Positions 19,408 through 24,878 of a DNA stretch of 64,000 bases are shown in pieces. The stretch's first letter is position 1. Every line of letters begins with the position of its first letter. The notes beneath the pieces were generated by a model, which saw nothing but the letters and a program-made list of their open reading frames with translations, did no database searches and was not told the DNA's origin. Origin of the DNA: Shewanella polaris (GTDB taxonomy: Bacteria; Pseudomonadota; Gammaproteobacteria; Enterobacterales; Shewanellaceae); contig NZ_CP041036.1 in the NCBI RefSeq assembly GCF_006385555.1, positions 4,154,001 through 4,218,000 of the forward strand, given 5' to 3'. The translations under genes were made by a program, and so were the position numbers.

Positions 19408-19926
19408 TTAATGCACTAGACGACAACCACACACGGTATTGCTCGGTTGAAATAACACCACCGCATAATCTTTTGCTTCATCTCGCTTAAGCACTTGAAG
19501 TCTTAGTGAATGTAAGCCTTTTTCGTTCAGATTCAAGCTGCTTACATAAGACAAATAGGACAAATGTTCTGGTATATCTTGAGGATTACTCGATAGATAT
19601 TCTTCTTTAGTGGTCACCGATATATCGTATATTTGATTATCTGTATCAATATCATCCACTGTTCCAGTCATTGATAATGTGCCAGCTAAATTACCTTCAT
19701 AATCAAAATATCGATAGTTAATTTGCGCTTGTCCATCATTAGATACCAAATCAACTAATAAATAATGACGACGATCTTGCTCTGCCGTTTGGTGGTGAAA
19801 CAGCTCAGAACTGCAACTGAGCATAAAACTTGGTACACGTATAGTGAGTCTATAAATAATTGCCACACTACTGAGTAGTAAGACTAAAATAATGATATTG
19901 ACGACCCACAATCTGCTTCTAGACAT
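19408..19926 (-). CDS. Membrane-anchored periplasmic protein, ToxS-like partner
   Basis: 172 residues. One N-terminal membrane helix (about residues 7-25) is followed by a periplasmic domain of about 140 residues with cysteines at both ends (SCSSELF early, VCGCRL at the C-terminus). It starts 7 bp after the stop of the ToxR-like gene, with GGAG ten bases before the ATG. Size, topology and position match ToxS-type proteins that stabilise ToxR-type regulators, though I see no strong sequence signature. The longer ORF (start 19971) would overlap the regulator by 38 bp. Confidence 0.65.
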   Translation of the reverse strand: MSRSRLWVVNIIILVLLLSSVAIIYRLTIRVPSFMLSCSSELFHHQTAEQDRRHYLLVDLVSNDGQAQINYRYFDYEGNLAGTLSMTGTVDDIDTDNQIYDISVTTKEEYLSSNPQDIPEHLSYLSYVSSLNLNEKGLHSLRLQVLKRDEAKDYAVVLFQPSNTVCGCRLVH

Positions 19927-19933
19927 AAGATAA

Positions 19934-20749
19934 TTACTCCAACCGCTGATTTGTTTGGCCTGACTTTGCACTTATGGTGTCACAAATATTCACCTGTTTA
20001 AGCCAATCACGATTAACAAATTGTTTAGGTTGCCGTAAGTCACTGATTTTCAAATTACGGATAAGAGACTGACCTAAGAGTTCCCCTTGCATAGTAATAT
20101 TCAACACTTGCTTGTCGTGAGACAGTGATAAAAATACCGACTGCCAACTGCTCACATCACAATCGGCAAAACTTTGTTGTATTTGTAGCCCTTGTTCAAT
20201 AAGTAATTCATTGTTGGTTTTTGAGGGTGAAAATAGCAGTATCTCTACAGTCTTTCCCGATGACAATGTAACTGTGCTGGTACTCAACGGTTGAGTAGGC
20301 ACGACATTAGGTTGCATTGCTTTCACAGCGACTACACTTGCAATGATCAACACTATTATCGTTATGATGATCAAGCCAGCATACCGACGGTTAATTGATG
20401 GTAATATGGTCTCAGTGACTTTTCGAGTGCGGTGATGCCTTAATAAGTAGCCTTGGCCTTTTACCGTTTCAATAAGTGATTCGTGTTGTGGGCCCAAAAA
20501 AGACCGTAATGTAAACACTGCTCGCGCTACCGAAGCGCCACTTAAATGTGATTTATCACCATAGCCAGATTCTAATAAGGGTTTAGCAACAACTTTCCCC
20601 TGATACTCAACTAATAAGCTCAGTACATGCAGTTCAGCCTTAGGAAGGTGCCAAACTTCACCATTGTCGAGATTAATCAAATCCCCTTTCTCTATATCAA
20701 ACCTACAATGCCCCAATTGCATGTCAGCGGCCCCAATACTCATCATCAT
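19934..20749 (-). CDS. ToxR/CadC-like transmembrane transcriptional regulator
   Basis: 271 residues. Residues about 10-105 form an OmpR-type winged helix (LPKAELHVLSLLVEYQGKVV, then SGASVARAVFTLRSFLG and the C-terminal hairpin IETVKGQGYLL). A single membrane helix follows at about 124-143, and then a periplasmic domain with two cysteines (ADCDVSS, NICDTIS). Such proteins sense conditions across the inner membrane and bind DNA directly. It is divergent from the cytochrome operon at 21188, a likely target, and is coupled to the ToxS-like gene. No strong Shine-Dalgarno is seen before the triple ATG. Confidence 0.88.
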   Translation of the reverse strand: MMMSIGAADMQLGHCRFDIEKGDLINLDNGEVWHLPKAELHVLSLLVEYQGKVVAKPLLESGYGDKSHLSGASVARAVFTLRSFLGPQHESLIETVKGQGYLLRHHRTRKVTETILPSINRRYAGLIIITIIVLIIASVVAVKAMQPNVVPTQPLSTSTVTLSSGKTVEILLFSPSKTNNELLIEQGLQIQQSFADCDVSSWQSVFLSLSHDKQVLNITMQGELLGQSLIRNLKISDLRQPKQFVNRDWLKQVNICDTISAKSGQTNQRLE

Positions 20750-20852
20750 GTTTAAAGTGTATGCAGAAAATCTTATGAAATCTGTGATCCTGATATCTTC
20801 AGGCTTTTATTCCTTACATTTTGTAAGGCGTAATGACTAACAATAGTGCAGT

Positions 20853-20868
20853 TGTGACTTAAGTCACA
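20853..20868. promoter_or_regulatory. CRP binding site
   Basis: TGTGA-CTTAAG-TCACA is a perfect 16-bp palindrome matching the CRP consensus at both half-sites. It lies in the 438-bp gap between the ToxR-like gene and the cytochrome operon. In Shewanella CRP, rather than FNR, drives most anaerobic respiration genes, so control of the cytochrome operon is plausible. The rest of the gap is AT-rich, and I see no other clear element. Confidence 0.8.
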
Positions 20869-21187
20869 CTATTTCGTAATAATAATGTTAATAAATACAC
20901 TGATAAATACGTATAAATCTTATAAATCATAAGATCCACCTCACACAAAAACTGTTTTTAGTATTTATAGACTCTATTCCTATGCCGTATATACCCAGCC
21001 AATTTAGCTATTTTTAAAGAACAGTTTTATCTGTTGTAAATCACACTTTTAATCTCCTCATTTATTATCGTTAAGTCATCGAGTTGCTAGTGCTTTTATC
21101 TAGCAGCGAATACCAAAGCAAGCCTAGCCAACAAGAGCATGAGCGCTTGAATACTAAAATAATGATGACACAAAGAGGGTAATGACC

Positions 21188-22009
21188 ATGAGCATGAATA
21201 GACGTCAAGCATTGACACAAATTATTGGATTAAGCACCGCTGCGGCGGGGGCTACACTATTAGGTACATCAGCATTTGCTGCTACAGATGCAGATGGTAA
21301 CTATCGTTTAGAGTTAGGAGAAGCGCTCAAATATGTGCCATTAGATGCAATGGCAACCGCTAAGCTAGCTTATGAAACAGGCGGCGGATGTATGCACCAA
21401 GTGTTCCATGCAATTATTACAATGCTTGCAGCATCTAGCAGTGCTGATGCCAGCAAGTTTGCTAGTATTCCAACAGCATTAGCAGGTTATGGTTGGGCAG
21501 GTGTTGTTGGACAAGGGACTTTATGTGGCAACCTTAATGCCGCAGGTATGTTAATTAACATTCTTGATGATATTAATGGCCAAAACAGTGCCATTATTGG
21601 TGCCTCATTCCGCTACTATGAAAGCACAGATTTACCTTTGTCTTCAGCTGAATTTGTTGCAGGGATTGGTTCCACTGATGAGAAATCATTAGAAGTAGGC
21701 GCAACCTCAATTGCCAACAGCCCATTATGTCACTCTTCAATTAGTAATTGGTCTGCGGCATCAGGTAAAGTATTTGCACTTAAAGGTGAACGTTGTAAAC
21801 GCCTATCTGCCAGTATTACTCTTAAAATTGTTGAATTGTTAAACCGCGCGTATGCCGGTGAAGACATTTCTATATTACCTGAAGCTAAACCATCAGCTGA
21901 AGCACAAGCATGTCAATCATGTCATGGTGTAAGCTCAACTATGGGTTCTGCAGCCAGTGTTAAAAGCGATATGGAATGTACCACTTGCCATACTGGACAC
22001 TTCAATTAA
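21188..22009 (+). CDS. Tat-exported split-Soret-like dihaem cytochrome with C_GCAxxG_C_C domain
   Basis: 273 residues. The N-terminus has a Tat-type signal (NRRQALTQ, hydrophobic core, AFAA). Residues about 45-225 form a C_GCAxxG_C_C-type redox domain with cysteines at 68, 113 (TLCGNLNAAG), 181 (SPLCHSS) and 203. The C-terminus has two c-type haem motifs, CQSCH (242-246) and CTTCH (264-268). This order matches split-Soret cytochrome c of Desulfovibrio, which also holds an Fe-S centre. The role is probably periplasmic electron transfer. An ATG at 21182 is also in frame, but GAGGG is only 2 nt from it and 8 nt from 21188. The lipoprotein gene follows at 11 bp. Confidence 0.82.
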   Translation: MSMNRRQALTQIIGLSTAAAGATLLGTSAFAATDADGNYRLELGEALKYVPLDAMATAKLAYETGGGCMHQVFHAIITMLAASSSADASKFASIPTALAGYGWAGVVGQGTLCGNLNAAGMLINILDDINGQNSAIIGASFRYYESTDLPLSSAEFVAGIGSTDEKSLEVGATSIANSPLCHSSISNWSAASGKVFALKGERCKRLSASITLKIVELLNRAYAGEDISILPEAKPSAEAQACQSCHGVSSTMGSAASVKSDMECTTCHTGHFN

Positions 22010-22019
22010 GGAGCGCGTG

Positions 22020-22586
22020 ATGAAACTTAAATATCTTAGCGCCATATTAGCCAGCTCATTGCTAATGTTTGGCTGTAGTAGTGACGATGATGATGACGTT
22101 GTCACAGATCCAGTAGTTGTTACAGATCCTGTTGTTACTGATCCTGTTGTTACAGACCCTGTAGTGGTAACTGACACGGTTAAAATTGATGAAGCGAGCA
22201 GCGTGGTAGTGTCACTAGACTCATTTGATGCCGTAACAGGAGCGTTGTCATTCACCCTAGCTAATACTGAAGGTAAAGCGCTCACTGATGCTGCCAATTA
22301 CAGTATTGTCTATTTCGGCTTTCCCGACCCTGCCTCACCATCTGTAAAACCTAAGGCTTGGAAACGCTGGCATGTCACTCAAAGCTATGGATGCGATAGT
22401 GCAACTACTGATGAATGCACTGGGACATTAGCAGCCACTGATACTGAAGGTAAATATACTTTTAATGTGAGTGATCTCGACTTACAAAGTAAAGCGTCAG
22501 ATGATGCTGATATGATTTACAAAGTCGCGGTTCAAATTAATGGCACGCTTGCGAGTAATGAAATTGAGTTAGTTGACGCAAATTAA
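22020..22586 (+). CDS. Lipoprotein resembling the haem-free N-terminal domain of MtrC/OmcA
   Basis: 188 residues. The lipoprotein signal ends LMFGC-SS, followed by an Asp run and a VTDPVV-repeat linker (about residues 27-53), then a beta-rich domain of about 130 residues (ITYFGF-like YFGFPDPA, WKRWHVTQSYGC, EGKYTFNVSDLD). The order lipid anchor, acidic linker and NGSYTF-like strand resembles domain I of outer-membrane decahaem cytochromes, but there is no CxxCH. It may dock the adjacent dihaem cytochrome or sit at the outer membrane. AAGGAG overlaps the stop of the cytochrome gene, so the two are translationally linked. Resemblance is by eye only. Confidence 0.65.
   Translation: MKLKYLSAILASSLLMFGCSSDDDDDVVTDPVVVTDPVVTDPVVTDPVVVTDTVKIDEASSVVVSLDSFDAVTGALSFTLANTEGKALTDAANYSIVYFGFPDPASPSVKPKAWKRWHVTQSYGCDSATTDECTGTLAATDTEGKYTFNVSDLDLQSKASDDADMIYKVAVQINGTLASNEIELVDAN
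22098..22177 (+). repeat. Short tandem repeats coding for VTDPVV linker
   Basis: About five imperfect copies of a 15- to 18-bp unit (GTTGTTACAGATCCT-like), each coding for V-V-T-D-P with an extra Val in some. Copies differ at third codon positions, so slippage is slowed but length variation between strains is likely. Confidence 0.8.
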
Positions 22587-22655
22587 TTGTCATCCAGCCT
22601 CCCCCCGGCTAATGACGACAAGAGATACTTTGTGCTCATTAACTTAGTACGATTT

Positions 22656-22684
22656 GCCGCAGTTTCATACTGCGGCTCTTTTTT
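22656..22684 (+). terminator. Rho-independent terminator of the cytochrome-lipoprotein operon
   Basis: A perfect 8-bp stem (GCCGCAGT / ACTGCGGC) with a TTCAT loop and a TCTTTTTT tail. Confidence 0.92.
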
Positions 22685-22731
22685 AAGACTAAAAACACAA
22701 CGTATTTGTTAATGATTATGTGGAAATACAT

Positions 22732-22763
22732 AAAAGGGTTTCAGCACTGCTGAAACCCTTTTT
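22732..22763. terminator. Bidirectional terminator, mainly for the prolyl oligopeptidase gene
   Basis: AAAAGGGTTTCAG and CTGAAACCCTTTT pair around CACTG. Both strands end in T-runs. It lies 22 bp after the stop of the minus-strand peptidase. Confidence 0.88.
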
Positions 22764-22784
22764 ATTCATCACTCAAAACAATGT

Positions 22785-24878
22785 TTAACGAAGTTGCTGC
22801 ATTAAATATGCGTACGCCATCGAACTTAACTCGGCTGCTTGGGTATTATCTGCCGCACCCGCATGACCACCTTCAATGTTTTCGTAATACAACACATCAA
22901 TACCCATATCTTCCATTTTAGCGACCATTTTACGCGCGTGCCCTGGGTGAACTCGGTCATCACGCGTTGAGGTAGTAAAGAACACTCTAGGGTAGTTAAC
23001 CCCTGATTTTAAATTATGATACGGAGAGTAAGTTTTAATGTATGCCCATTCTTCTGCTATATCAGGATTACCGTATTCACCCATCCAACTGGCACCGGCT
23101 AATAACTTATTGTAGCGCTTCATGTCTAACAACGGCACTTGGCACACTACGGCGTTATATAACTCAGGCCGACGAGTAAATGCAGCGCCCATTAATAAAC
23201 CACCGTTACTACCACCTTGAATACCAAGATGCTTACTTGAAGTAATTTTACGGGCAATTAAGTCTTCTGCGATGGCTTCAAAGTCTTCATACGCTTTATG
23301 ACGATGTTGCTTTAACGCTGCTTGATGCCAAGCAGGGCCATATTCGCCACCACCACGAATGTTCGCAAGTACATAAACACCGCCCTGCTCTAACCAGTTT
23401 TTACCAATAGTGGCCGAATAGGCTGGCAAAAGAGAAATTTCAAAACCGCCATAACCGTAGAGTAATGTAGGGTTACTGCTATCAAGTTTGATATCTTTAG
23501 CCATTACCACAAAATAAGGCACTTTAGTGCCATCTTTGGATTTAACAAAATACTGTTGAGTAATAAATTTATCGGCTGAAAATTGCTGCGGCATCGCTTT
23601 AATTTTATCGGCTTTTAGACTTGCGCCATTTAAACGATATAAACTGGCTGGTTCTAAAAAACTGGTGTAATTAACAAAAAAATCATCACTATCACGCTCA
23701 ACATCAAACACACTTAAACTGCCATTGGCTTCAAATGGTACTGGTTTACTTTGCCACTCACCTTTGTCGTTTTGCATGTAACGTACAAGTTTACTTTTTA
23801 CATCATCAAGCCAGGTCACAAAAATAGCATTCTGGCTAAATGAAACTTGCGAAATAGAGGCATGCGTCGTTGGCGATACCAACTCACTAAACTCTGGCTT
23901 TTGCGCAATCAGTTTATCAACTGGGGTATAGACTATGGCACCTTGCTTAAAAGTACCTTTTGGGGTGACTAAATCGCTTTTTAGCTCAATATATAACTGA
24001 CCTTTAAAATAACCTTTTAACTCGGCATCTTTGGGAATAGGTAGCAACACTAACTTACTATCTTGATAAACATAATGTTTAGCCGTGTAAAAAGTTAAAC
24101 TTTCTGTAACGATATTCAACGGAGTTTTATCATCAAACATCACGTAGCCAGACACTGCAACAGACGCTTTATCGCCTCTAAACACTAATTTGGCTGCAGA
24201 CAAAGGTGTGCCACGTTTCCACAATTTAACCACACTCGGATAACCTGAATCTGTCATGCTTTGCGCATCACCAAAATCAGTGCCGACAAACACAGTATCT
24301 TTATCAATCCAGCTTAGCATTGACTTAGCCTCAGCCAACAGAAATGGTTGTTGAGTGTTGCCAACAAAAGTCTTAGTCGTTAAATCAAATTCGCGTACTT
24401 CAGCCGCATCAGCACCACCGCGAGACAGAGACACAAAGCAACGCTCATTTTGTGGATACTGGCAGTTCATGCCTTTATAAACCCAGTTAACGCCTTCGGC
24501 TTTGCCAAGGGCATCGATATCAAGCACTGTTTCCCATTCAGGTTCGGCCTTAGCGTATTCCGCTAACGTGGTACGACGATAAATGCCACGTTCGTGGGTC
24601 TCGTCCTTCCAGAAGTTATACAAAAAATCGCCAATACGGGAGGCGTACGGAATACGTGCTTTATCGTTTAGAATATCTAGACTATTTGACACCAGATGAT
24701 CAAACCCTGGATAAGCCTTAATGTGAGCCGCAGACAATGCATTTTGCTGCTTAACCCATTCCATAGGCTTGACGCCTTCGACATCTTCTAACCAAATAAA
24801 TTTATCTTCTTCTGCATGAACAGGTACTGCCATAGTCATCGCACTCGCTATACATAAAGGTATGATTCGCTTAAGCAT
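22785..24878 (-). CDS. Prolyl oligopeptidase, S9A family, periplasmic
   Basis: 697 residues. A signal peptide (about 1-22, ending VHA-E) precedes the N-terminal cap, a beta-propeller of about residues 80-420, and the C-terminal alpha/beta hydrolase domain. The catalytic Ser is S557 in QGGSNGGLLMG, the Asp is in STRDDRVHPGHA, and the His is in EGGHAGAA. The enzyme cleaves short peptides after proline and probably helps use peptides in the periplasm. Length and motifs are complete. It is monocistronic. Confidence 0.95.
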   Translation of the reverse strand: MLKRIIPLCIASAMTMAVPVHAEEDKFIWLEDVEGVKPMEWVKQQNALSAAHIKAYPGFDHLVSNSLDILNDKARIPYASRIGDFLYNFWKDETHERGIYRRTTLAEYAKAEPEWETVLDIDALGKAEGVNWVYKGMNCQYPQNERCFVSLSRGGADAAEVREFDLTTKTFVGNTQQPFLLAEAKSMLSWIDKDTVFVGTDFGDAQSMTDSGYPSVVKLWKRGTPLSAAKLVFRGDKASVAVSGYVMFDDKTPLNIVTESLTFYTAKHYVYQDSKLVLLPIPKDAELKGYFKGQLYIELKSDLVTPKGTFKQGAIVYTPVDKLIAQKPEFSELVSPTTHASISQVSFSQNAIFVTWLDDVKSKLVRYMQNDKGEWQSKPVPFEANGSLSVFDVERDSDDFFVNYTSFLEPASLYRLNGASLKADKIKAMPQQFSADKFITQQYFVKSKDGTKVPYFVVMAKDIKLDSSNPTLLYGYGGFEISLLPAYSATIGKNWLEQGGVYVLANIRGGGEYGPAWHQAALKQHRHKAYEDFEAIAEDLIARKITSSKHLGIQGGSNGGLLMGAAFTRRPELYNAVVCQVPLLDMKRYNKLLAGASWMGEYGNPDIAEEWAYIKTYSPYHNLKSGVNYPRVFFTTSTRDDRVHPGHARKMVAKMEDMGIDVLYYENIEGGHAGAADNTQAAELSSMAYAYLMQQLR

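Follow-up and report, generated by a model that had tools for sequence, protein, structure and literature searches.

A ToxR/ToxS-like pair divergent from a split-Soret-type cytochrome and a haem-free domain I lipoprotein in Shewanella polaris

The four-gene cassette and its protein families

We analyzed a 64,000-nucleotide (64-kb) stretch of the Shewanella polaris genome (contig NZ_CP041036.1, positions 4,154,001 to 4,218,000; hereafter the window), and within it a divergent cassette in which minus-strand genes for a ToxR-like regulator and its ToxS-like partner read away from plus-strand genes for a split-Soret-type cytochrome (ssc) and a lipoprotein, in the order toxS-like, toxR-like, ssc, lipoprotein. 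The genome is a single contig of 4.65 Mb, and its nearest relatives by ssc are Shewanella. A first-pass annotation, made from the letters of the window alone, had proposed this arrangement, with a perfect CRP site between the two divergent gene pairs; the site and all four open reading frames (ORFs) lie where it placed them, although the start that it gave the toxS-like gene, 19971, is an upstream GTG, and the ATG at 19926, as in relatives, is the likelier start. The features of the locus are as follows.

19408..19926, minus strand: ToxS/VtrC-like periplasmic co-component, 172 amino acids, ATG start; predicted single transmembrane helix and eight-strand barrel; Cys38, Cys166 and Cys168 (C-terminal CxC)
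19934..20749, minus strand: ToxR/VtrA-like membrane transcription regulator, 271 amino acids; winged helix, transmembrane segment at about 124-142, periplasmic domain with Cys197 and Cys256
20777..20790, no strand: conserved intergenic element GAAATCTGTGATCC, near the toxR start, with TGTGA-like halves
20853..20868, no strand: perfect CRP-type palindrome TGTGACTTAAGTCACA
21038..21045, no strand: conserved ssc-proximal half-site AAATCACA, a TGTGA-like half
21188..22009, plus strand: split-Soret-type dihaem cytochrome c (ssc), 273 amino acids; Tat-like (twin-arginine translocation) signal; Cys68, Cys113, Cys181 and Cys203; CxxCH at 242 and 264
22020..22586, plus strand: lipoprotein, stand-alone homologue of domain I of MtrC/OmcA/UndA, 188 amino acids; Cys19 lipobox; Cys125 and Cys133; sole histidine His118

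The intergenic region between toxR-like and ssc spans 438 base pairs (bp), and the lipoprotein gene begins 10 nucleotides past the ssc stop. The ssc gene starts at the ATG at 21188 (alternatively 21182), and the N-terminus of its product, MSMNRRQALTQI, carries a twin arginine, from which the Tat signal was assigned by eye. The four cysteines, the two CxxCH motifs and the twin arginine are exactly as first claimed. The protein matches NCBIfam NF047622 over nearly its full length (E 2.8e-28, 99.1 bits), and it aligns over about 220 residues with PDB entry 1h21 (E 3.3e-16 as a single sequence, 1.8e-29 as a profile). In that alignment its four cysteines and both CxxCH motifs fall on their 1h21 counterparts, which makes the pattern one of the split-Soret type, and the four cysteines are invariant in 13 aligned rows. 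By sequence, ssc thus belongs to the wide split-Soret cytochrome c family; membership of the Desulfovibrio equivalog NF047622 was rejected, as 99.1 bits falls below its 400-bit cut-off. The cysteines had initially been read as a C_GCAxxG_C_C pattern, which holds insofar as they are the cysteines of split-Soret cytochromes, and fails insofar as the Pfam family so named was not among the matches of a Pfam search (E up to 1). In the split-Soret cytochrome of Desulfovibrio desulfuricans the four cysteines reportedly bind a non-haem iron centre, and those of the window protein may hold one as well.

In Shewanella oneidensis, SO0939 is listed as a 'split-soret diheme cytochrome c', a predicted Tat substrate and predicted to be extracellular (PMC3623810), and a second paper lists it as outer-membrane/extracellular (PMC4837345). 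It is tied to the window gene by this split-Soret annotation, the named loci of the present analysis coming from other strains. A candidate for a second split-Soret cytochrome, SO4047, was dropped because PMC5826389 terms it SoxA-like.

The lipoprotein has a lipobox cysteine at position 19 and no CxxCH. Its single sequence found no match in the PDB, whereas its profile matches MtrF (3pmq, E 0.0035) as well as the N-termini of 10-11-haem cytochromes; seven of the long-frame matches listed for this profile were fetched, and 10-11 CxxCH motifs occur in all seven. Its predicted fold is the domain I fold of MtrC/OmcA/UndA, so that the proposed kinship with domain I is borne out by profile and by predicted fold. 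Membership of the decahaem OmcA/MtrC family itself (TIGR03507) was rejected because CxxCH is absent and the score, 14.3 bits, lies under the 209-bit threshold; sequence and model thus make the protein a domain I homologue and not a member of that family. Its only histidine, His118, is kept in 80 of 81 relatives.

The ToxR-like protein combines an OmpR/ToxR-type DNA-binding domain (PF00486, E 2.9e-9) with a hydrophobic segment at about residues 124-142, and the top PDB match of its profile is 7nmb, 'Cholera toxin transcriptional activator' (E 3.6e-11). Neither Cys197 nor Cys256 varies across 27 aligned rows. For the ToxS-like protein, a profile search of PDB sequences gave no match, and its relation to co-component barrels is visible by predicted fold only: it adjoins the ToxR-like protein and is predicted to form a lipocalin-like barrel, whose modelled first strand (34-42) contains Cys38 and whose last (164-170) contains the CxC (166/168). 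On this modelled fold, the regulators are a co-component pair of the ToxR/ToxS and VtrA/VtrC kind. The nearest starts of the two genes overlap or touch in 44 of 70 relatives; in the window, the ATG start leaves a gap of 7 nucleotides and the upstream GTG would overlap.

Conservation of linkage, intergenic sites and the sensor cysteines

A genome scan kept 80 loci from 98 relatives, comprising Shewanella, Ferrimonas, Paraferrimonas and one record labelled Marinobacter. The lipoprotein gene follows ssc in all 80 loci, and toxRS stands divergently upstream of ssc in 70; the regulator pair is thus kept beside the cytochrome, as the first-pass annotation had supposed. The other ten loci comprise one that starts at a contig edge (L109), one with toxRS directly downstream (L138) and eight without toxRS. 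The outer neighbours vary, with 29 different left/right pairs among 69 loci (a figure that spurious ORFs may inflate), and other multihaem genes occur in the fetched flanks of only four of the 80 loci (L075, L080, L137 and L139). The record labelled Marinobacter nauticus DP3N21-5 (L123) has a ToxS-like protein that groups with Ferrimonas balearica, pointing to a mislabelled genome or a transfer.

Matches to ssc occur in 106 of 129 Shewanella genomes, those in G026 (C60/C137) and G136 (C163) being broken or partial only, with in-frame stops and, in G136, a truncated lipoprotein. Cytochromes of the OmcA/MtrC family (TIGR03507) occur in 120 of these genomes and ToxS-like proteins in 110, second pairs counted. 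Every one of the 106 ssc genomes carries OmcA/MtrC-family cytochromes, and ssc is found in none of the nine genomes without them, one of which is 52% complete and three of which (G018, G146 and G149) were scored as lacking ssc by elimination; 14 of the 120 TIGR03507 genomes are without ssc. A class-wide search gave, besides the genome of the window, one weak match to the CxxCH region among the other 273 genomes. NF047622 run over 299 genomes of the phylum gave four matches: that genome again, one from its genus, another from its family, and a weak one.

The palindrome TGTGACTTAAGTCACA is the sole perfect TGTGA-N6-TCACA in the window. The toxR start is about 100 bp away from it and the ssc start 320-335 bp, distances at which it may serve toxRS, ssc or both. 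We compared 70 homologous intergenic regions (the window included, L081 excluded): a CRP-like site with at most one mismatch is present in 40 of them, against a mean of 1.09 and a maximum of 5 in 100 shuffled sets, and one with at most two mismatches in 68, against a shuffled mean of 15.2, while perfect sites occur in three. A second, toxR-proximal element resembling CTGTGATCC is present in part of the regions only. Of 59 dereplicated regions, 39 contain the dyad CTGT-GATC, against 4.0 on average in five rough shuffles. Of the 30 regions listed, 12 have the GAAATCTGTGATCC element no more than 65 bp from the toxR side and 9 have an exact copy of AAATCACA no more than 160 bp from ssc; dyads were also found. 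Scanning 20600-22790 gave 7 promoter hits where chance predicts 6.9; terminator-like sites over the same interval numbered 6 against 1.9 expected, one of them being the CRP palindrome itself and another lying past the lipoprotein gene at 22656-22676.

The C-terminal CxC of the ToxS-like protein accompanies ssc. The ToxS-like copies, at first labelled as linked or unlinked, were relabelled as facing, sole downstream, second, detached or ssc-lost because second pairs do lie close to the cassette, and the sole downstream pair (L138) was set apart from the second pairs once its CxC was known. Of the 71 copies facing ssc, the window's among them, 70 have the motif (the exception is L126), as do the sole downstream copy (1/1) and both copies whose ssc was lost; it is present in none of 19 second-pair copies and none of three detached copies (L180-L182). 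Three second-pair tails with aberrant ends (L098, L100 and L102) were counted as lacking CxC in one tally and were left out of the count of 19 and of the trees. In the ToxS-like tree, and again after removal of the CxC tail and of the long-branched L105_S2, the facing clade encloses the detached copies together with the second copy of L107 (support 100/100, 96/85 and 99/92 without the tail), although the programme gave a long-branch warning. In these copies Tyr replaces the first cysteine, which together with their nesting points to at least one loss of this cysteine among copies no longer facing ssc.

A second ToxR/ToxS-like pair lies past the lipoprotein gene in many loci (L076, L078, L083, L084, L087, L088, L092, L094 and others), and its ToxS-like protein mostly has W-x-C where facing copies have C-x-C. 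In the three detached loci (L180, L181 and L182, from G005, G081 and G085), the ToxR-like protein is split over two ORFs, one for the DNA-binding part and one for the transmembrane and periplasmic part, followed by ToxS-like; in L184 (7138-8122), an ORF of only the transmembrane and periplasmic kind lies downstream of the cassette.

The second ssc paralogue has neighbours of its own. In L137 it stands near an NrfD-type membrane subunit, a 4Fe-4S protein and an NrfB-like cytochrome (Pfam), with the same order in L139, and in the Paraferrimonas locus L138 (1-8836) it occurs with an NrfD-type (polysulfide-reductase-like) protein, an ArsR-type regulator, a rhodanese-fused disulfide reductase and toxRS. 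A recurring LysR-like gene adjoins the second-paralogue ssc-lipoprotein pair in L129, L130, L137 and L139 (assigned by Pfam in L137 only), where it perhaps replaces toxRS as the regulator. These neighbours do not suffice to assign a substrate to the main group, which includes the window.

A proposed sensor-linked electron-transfer cassette and its alternatives

From the computed gene order, linkage, families, folds, conserved cysteines, CRP-like enrichment and OmcA/MtrC-family co-occurrence, we arrive at a reading to which we give about even chances: that CRP and a periplasmic co-component sensing redox state or a ligand control a split-Soret electron-transfer module docked at the outer membrane. 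The locus would be a self-contained electron-transfer cassette carrying its own membrane sensor, in keeping with the hitherto undescribed periplasmic electron-transfer or redox-sensing unit that the first-pass annotation had suggested, an interpretation that our results support. The ToxR-like and ToxS-like proteins would form an inner-membrane co-component receptor, for which the periplasmic signal may be a small hydrophobic ligand within the ToxS-like barrel, the redox state of thiols, or both; the signal would alter how ToxR binds the shared intergenic region, thereby setting the expression of ssc and the lipoprotein, with CRP acting above it as a global control of anaerobic respiration. The cytochrome would fold in the cytoplasm around its putative four-cysteine iron centre, be exported by Tat and gain its two haems in the periplasm, and the lipoprotein, probably co-transcribed with ssc, would hold or dock it at the outer membrane of cells that also carry decahaem cytochromes. 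The electron partners and substrate of this module are presumptive.

A more specific form of the proposal, which we regard as doubtful, is a redox-reading respiratory co-component. In Vibrio cholerae ToxS, the first and last barrel strands touch only partly, and a ToxR strand fills the gap (PMC10624426). Since Cys38 and the CxC lie in the strands of this seam and Cys256 of the ToxR-like protein is near its C-terminus, the five periplasmic cysteines might be a thiol switch at the sensor seam, reading a state set by or through ssc and the lipoprotein; the lipoprotein histidine may contact a haem or the iron centre, and the whole would make a closed redox feedback loop.

Several observations weigh against the sensor-linked cassette. 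All eight loci without toxRS (L129, L130, L131, L132, L134, L135, L137 and L139) belong to the second ssc paralogue group, and in two genomes (G069 and G029; L178 and L179) toxRS with its CxC remains between the usual cassette flanks while ssc and the lipoprotein are gone, which would fit either a recent loss or further targets of the pair. The facing ToxS-like protein of L126 is without the first cysteine, and the facing toxR-like gene of L063 (4740-5523) lies in two overlapping frames, through either a frameshift or faulty assembly. Only five changes on the tree are needed to account for the facing-with-CxC label, which implies few independent events; the CxC pattern is uncorrected for shared ancestry, as is the Fisher p of 4e-8 for co-occurrence of ssc with TIGR03507. 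A deletion strain of SO0939 exists and is not named among the Tat-substrate mutants with a growth defect in the available part of PMC3623810, and no fitness phenotype was seen in D. alaskensis mutants of split-Soret cytochrome (PMC4215793). In the literature searched, we found no DNA-binding, expression or interaction experiments on the unit.

The absence of a reported growth defect for the SO0939 deletion would suit an arrangement in which ssc and the lipoprotein carry little electron flux and mainly act as a periplasmic sensor of redox state or of nitric oxide (NO) or sulfur species, read by the ToxS-like CxC. The company that CxC keeps with facing ssc and the conserved periplasmic cysteines of both regulators agree with this, whereas second-paralogue ssc-lipoprotein pairs standing without toxRS imply that the pair is useful apart from the sensor, and the two genomes in which toxRS outlived ssc also tell against it; we consider such signal generation unlikely. 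We would say the same of a role in supplying electrons for the reduction or detoxification of polysulfide, sulfite, nitrite or NO, and not of metals. The neighbours of the second paralogue in L137, L139 and L138 point that way, as does the lower expression of the D. desulfuricans ssc gene upon NO exposure (PMC5701242), but no such neighbours were recognised in the window's main group, where neighbours were clustered and not all annotated.

Domain I homology, with the common lipobox, W, Cys pair and G-x-Y, and the restriction of ssc within the genus to TIGR03507-bearing genomes raise a further alternative, namely that the lipoprotein takes the place of domain I in decahaem complexes as a decoy, or chaperones their export, with the cytochrome a side partner. 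The unbroken adjacency of lipoprotein and ssc, the scarcity of other multihaem genes in the flanks and the 14 TIGR03507 genomes without ssc make this rather improbable. That toxRS is an unrelated regulator merely adjoining ssc would accommodate the loci in which one occurs without the other; we hold it highly improbable, given the constant divergent order in 70 of 80 loci despite the varied outer contexts, and the toxRS placed directly downstream in Paraferrimonas instead.

We know of no agreed function for split-Soret cytochromes, nor for the haem-free domain I of MtrC/OmcA. In this cassette they form a minimal pair beside a sensor pair and a conserved promoter region, and the genus is tractable, so that simple deletions could address the function of each. 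If the sensor-linked cassette is real, co-component sensing, described for bile and virulence, would extend to the control of electron transport, suggesting that a sensor type known from Vibrio bile sensing also serves respiration.

Comparison with known systems

The window cytochrome shares with the split-Soret cytochrome c of D. desulfuricans (1h21) the four cysteines and two C-terminal CxxCH motifs over the aligned length given above, and a Tat-like signal is common to it, to the SO0939 prediction and to archaeal split-Soret proteins (PMC4429474). Unlike the Desulfovibrio proteins, from whose equivalog its score (99 bits against 400) sets it apart, ssc of Shewanella and Ferrimonas is partnered by a domain I lipoprotein and a sensor pair. 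The lipoprotein resembles domain I of MtrC, MtrF, OmcA and UndA in its lipobox, an acidic stretch past the lipid cysteine, the W, the G-x-Y and the predicted fold, and both members of its Cys pair are present in six of seven compared multihaem cytochromes. It differs from these proteins in having no haem domain and in its conserved histidine, which occurs in none of the seven.

The regulators resemble ToxR/ToxS and VtrA/VtrC in the winged helix, the transmembrane segment, the periplasmic domain with a near-C-terminal cysteine and the downstream lipocalin-like barrel (PMC9214523, Kinch et al. 2022), and differ in that the facing ToxS-like protein has a CxC and a first-strand cysteine and that the pair faces a cytochrome, not virulence genes. 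The words Shewanella and cytochrome are absent from the main text of that paper, and the whole words 'domain I' and 'lipoprotein' do not occur in PMC11421213; nothing in the literature searched, of which coverage was partial, links, for Shewanella, a domain I lipoprotein or ToxRS to a split-Soret cytochrome. As in the Shewanella CRP regulon, a consensus palindrome is conserved upstream, and the cassette may be under CRP control. The families are each known singly, and what is new, as far as our searches go, is their sensor-linked union, the free-standing domain I and the presence of a co-component beside a cytochrome.

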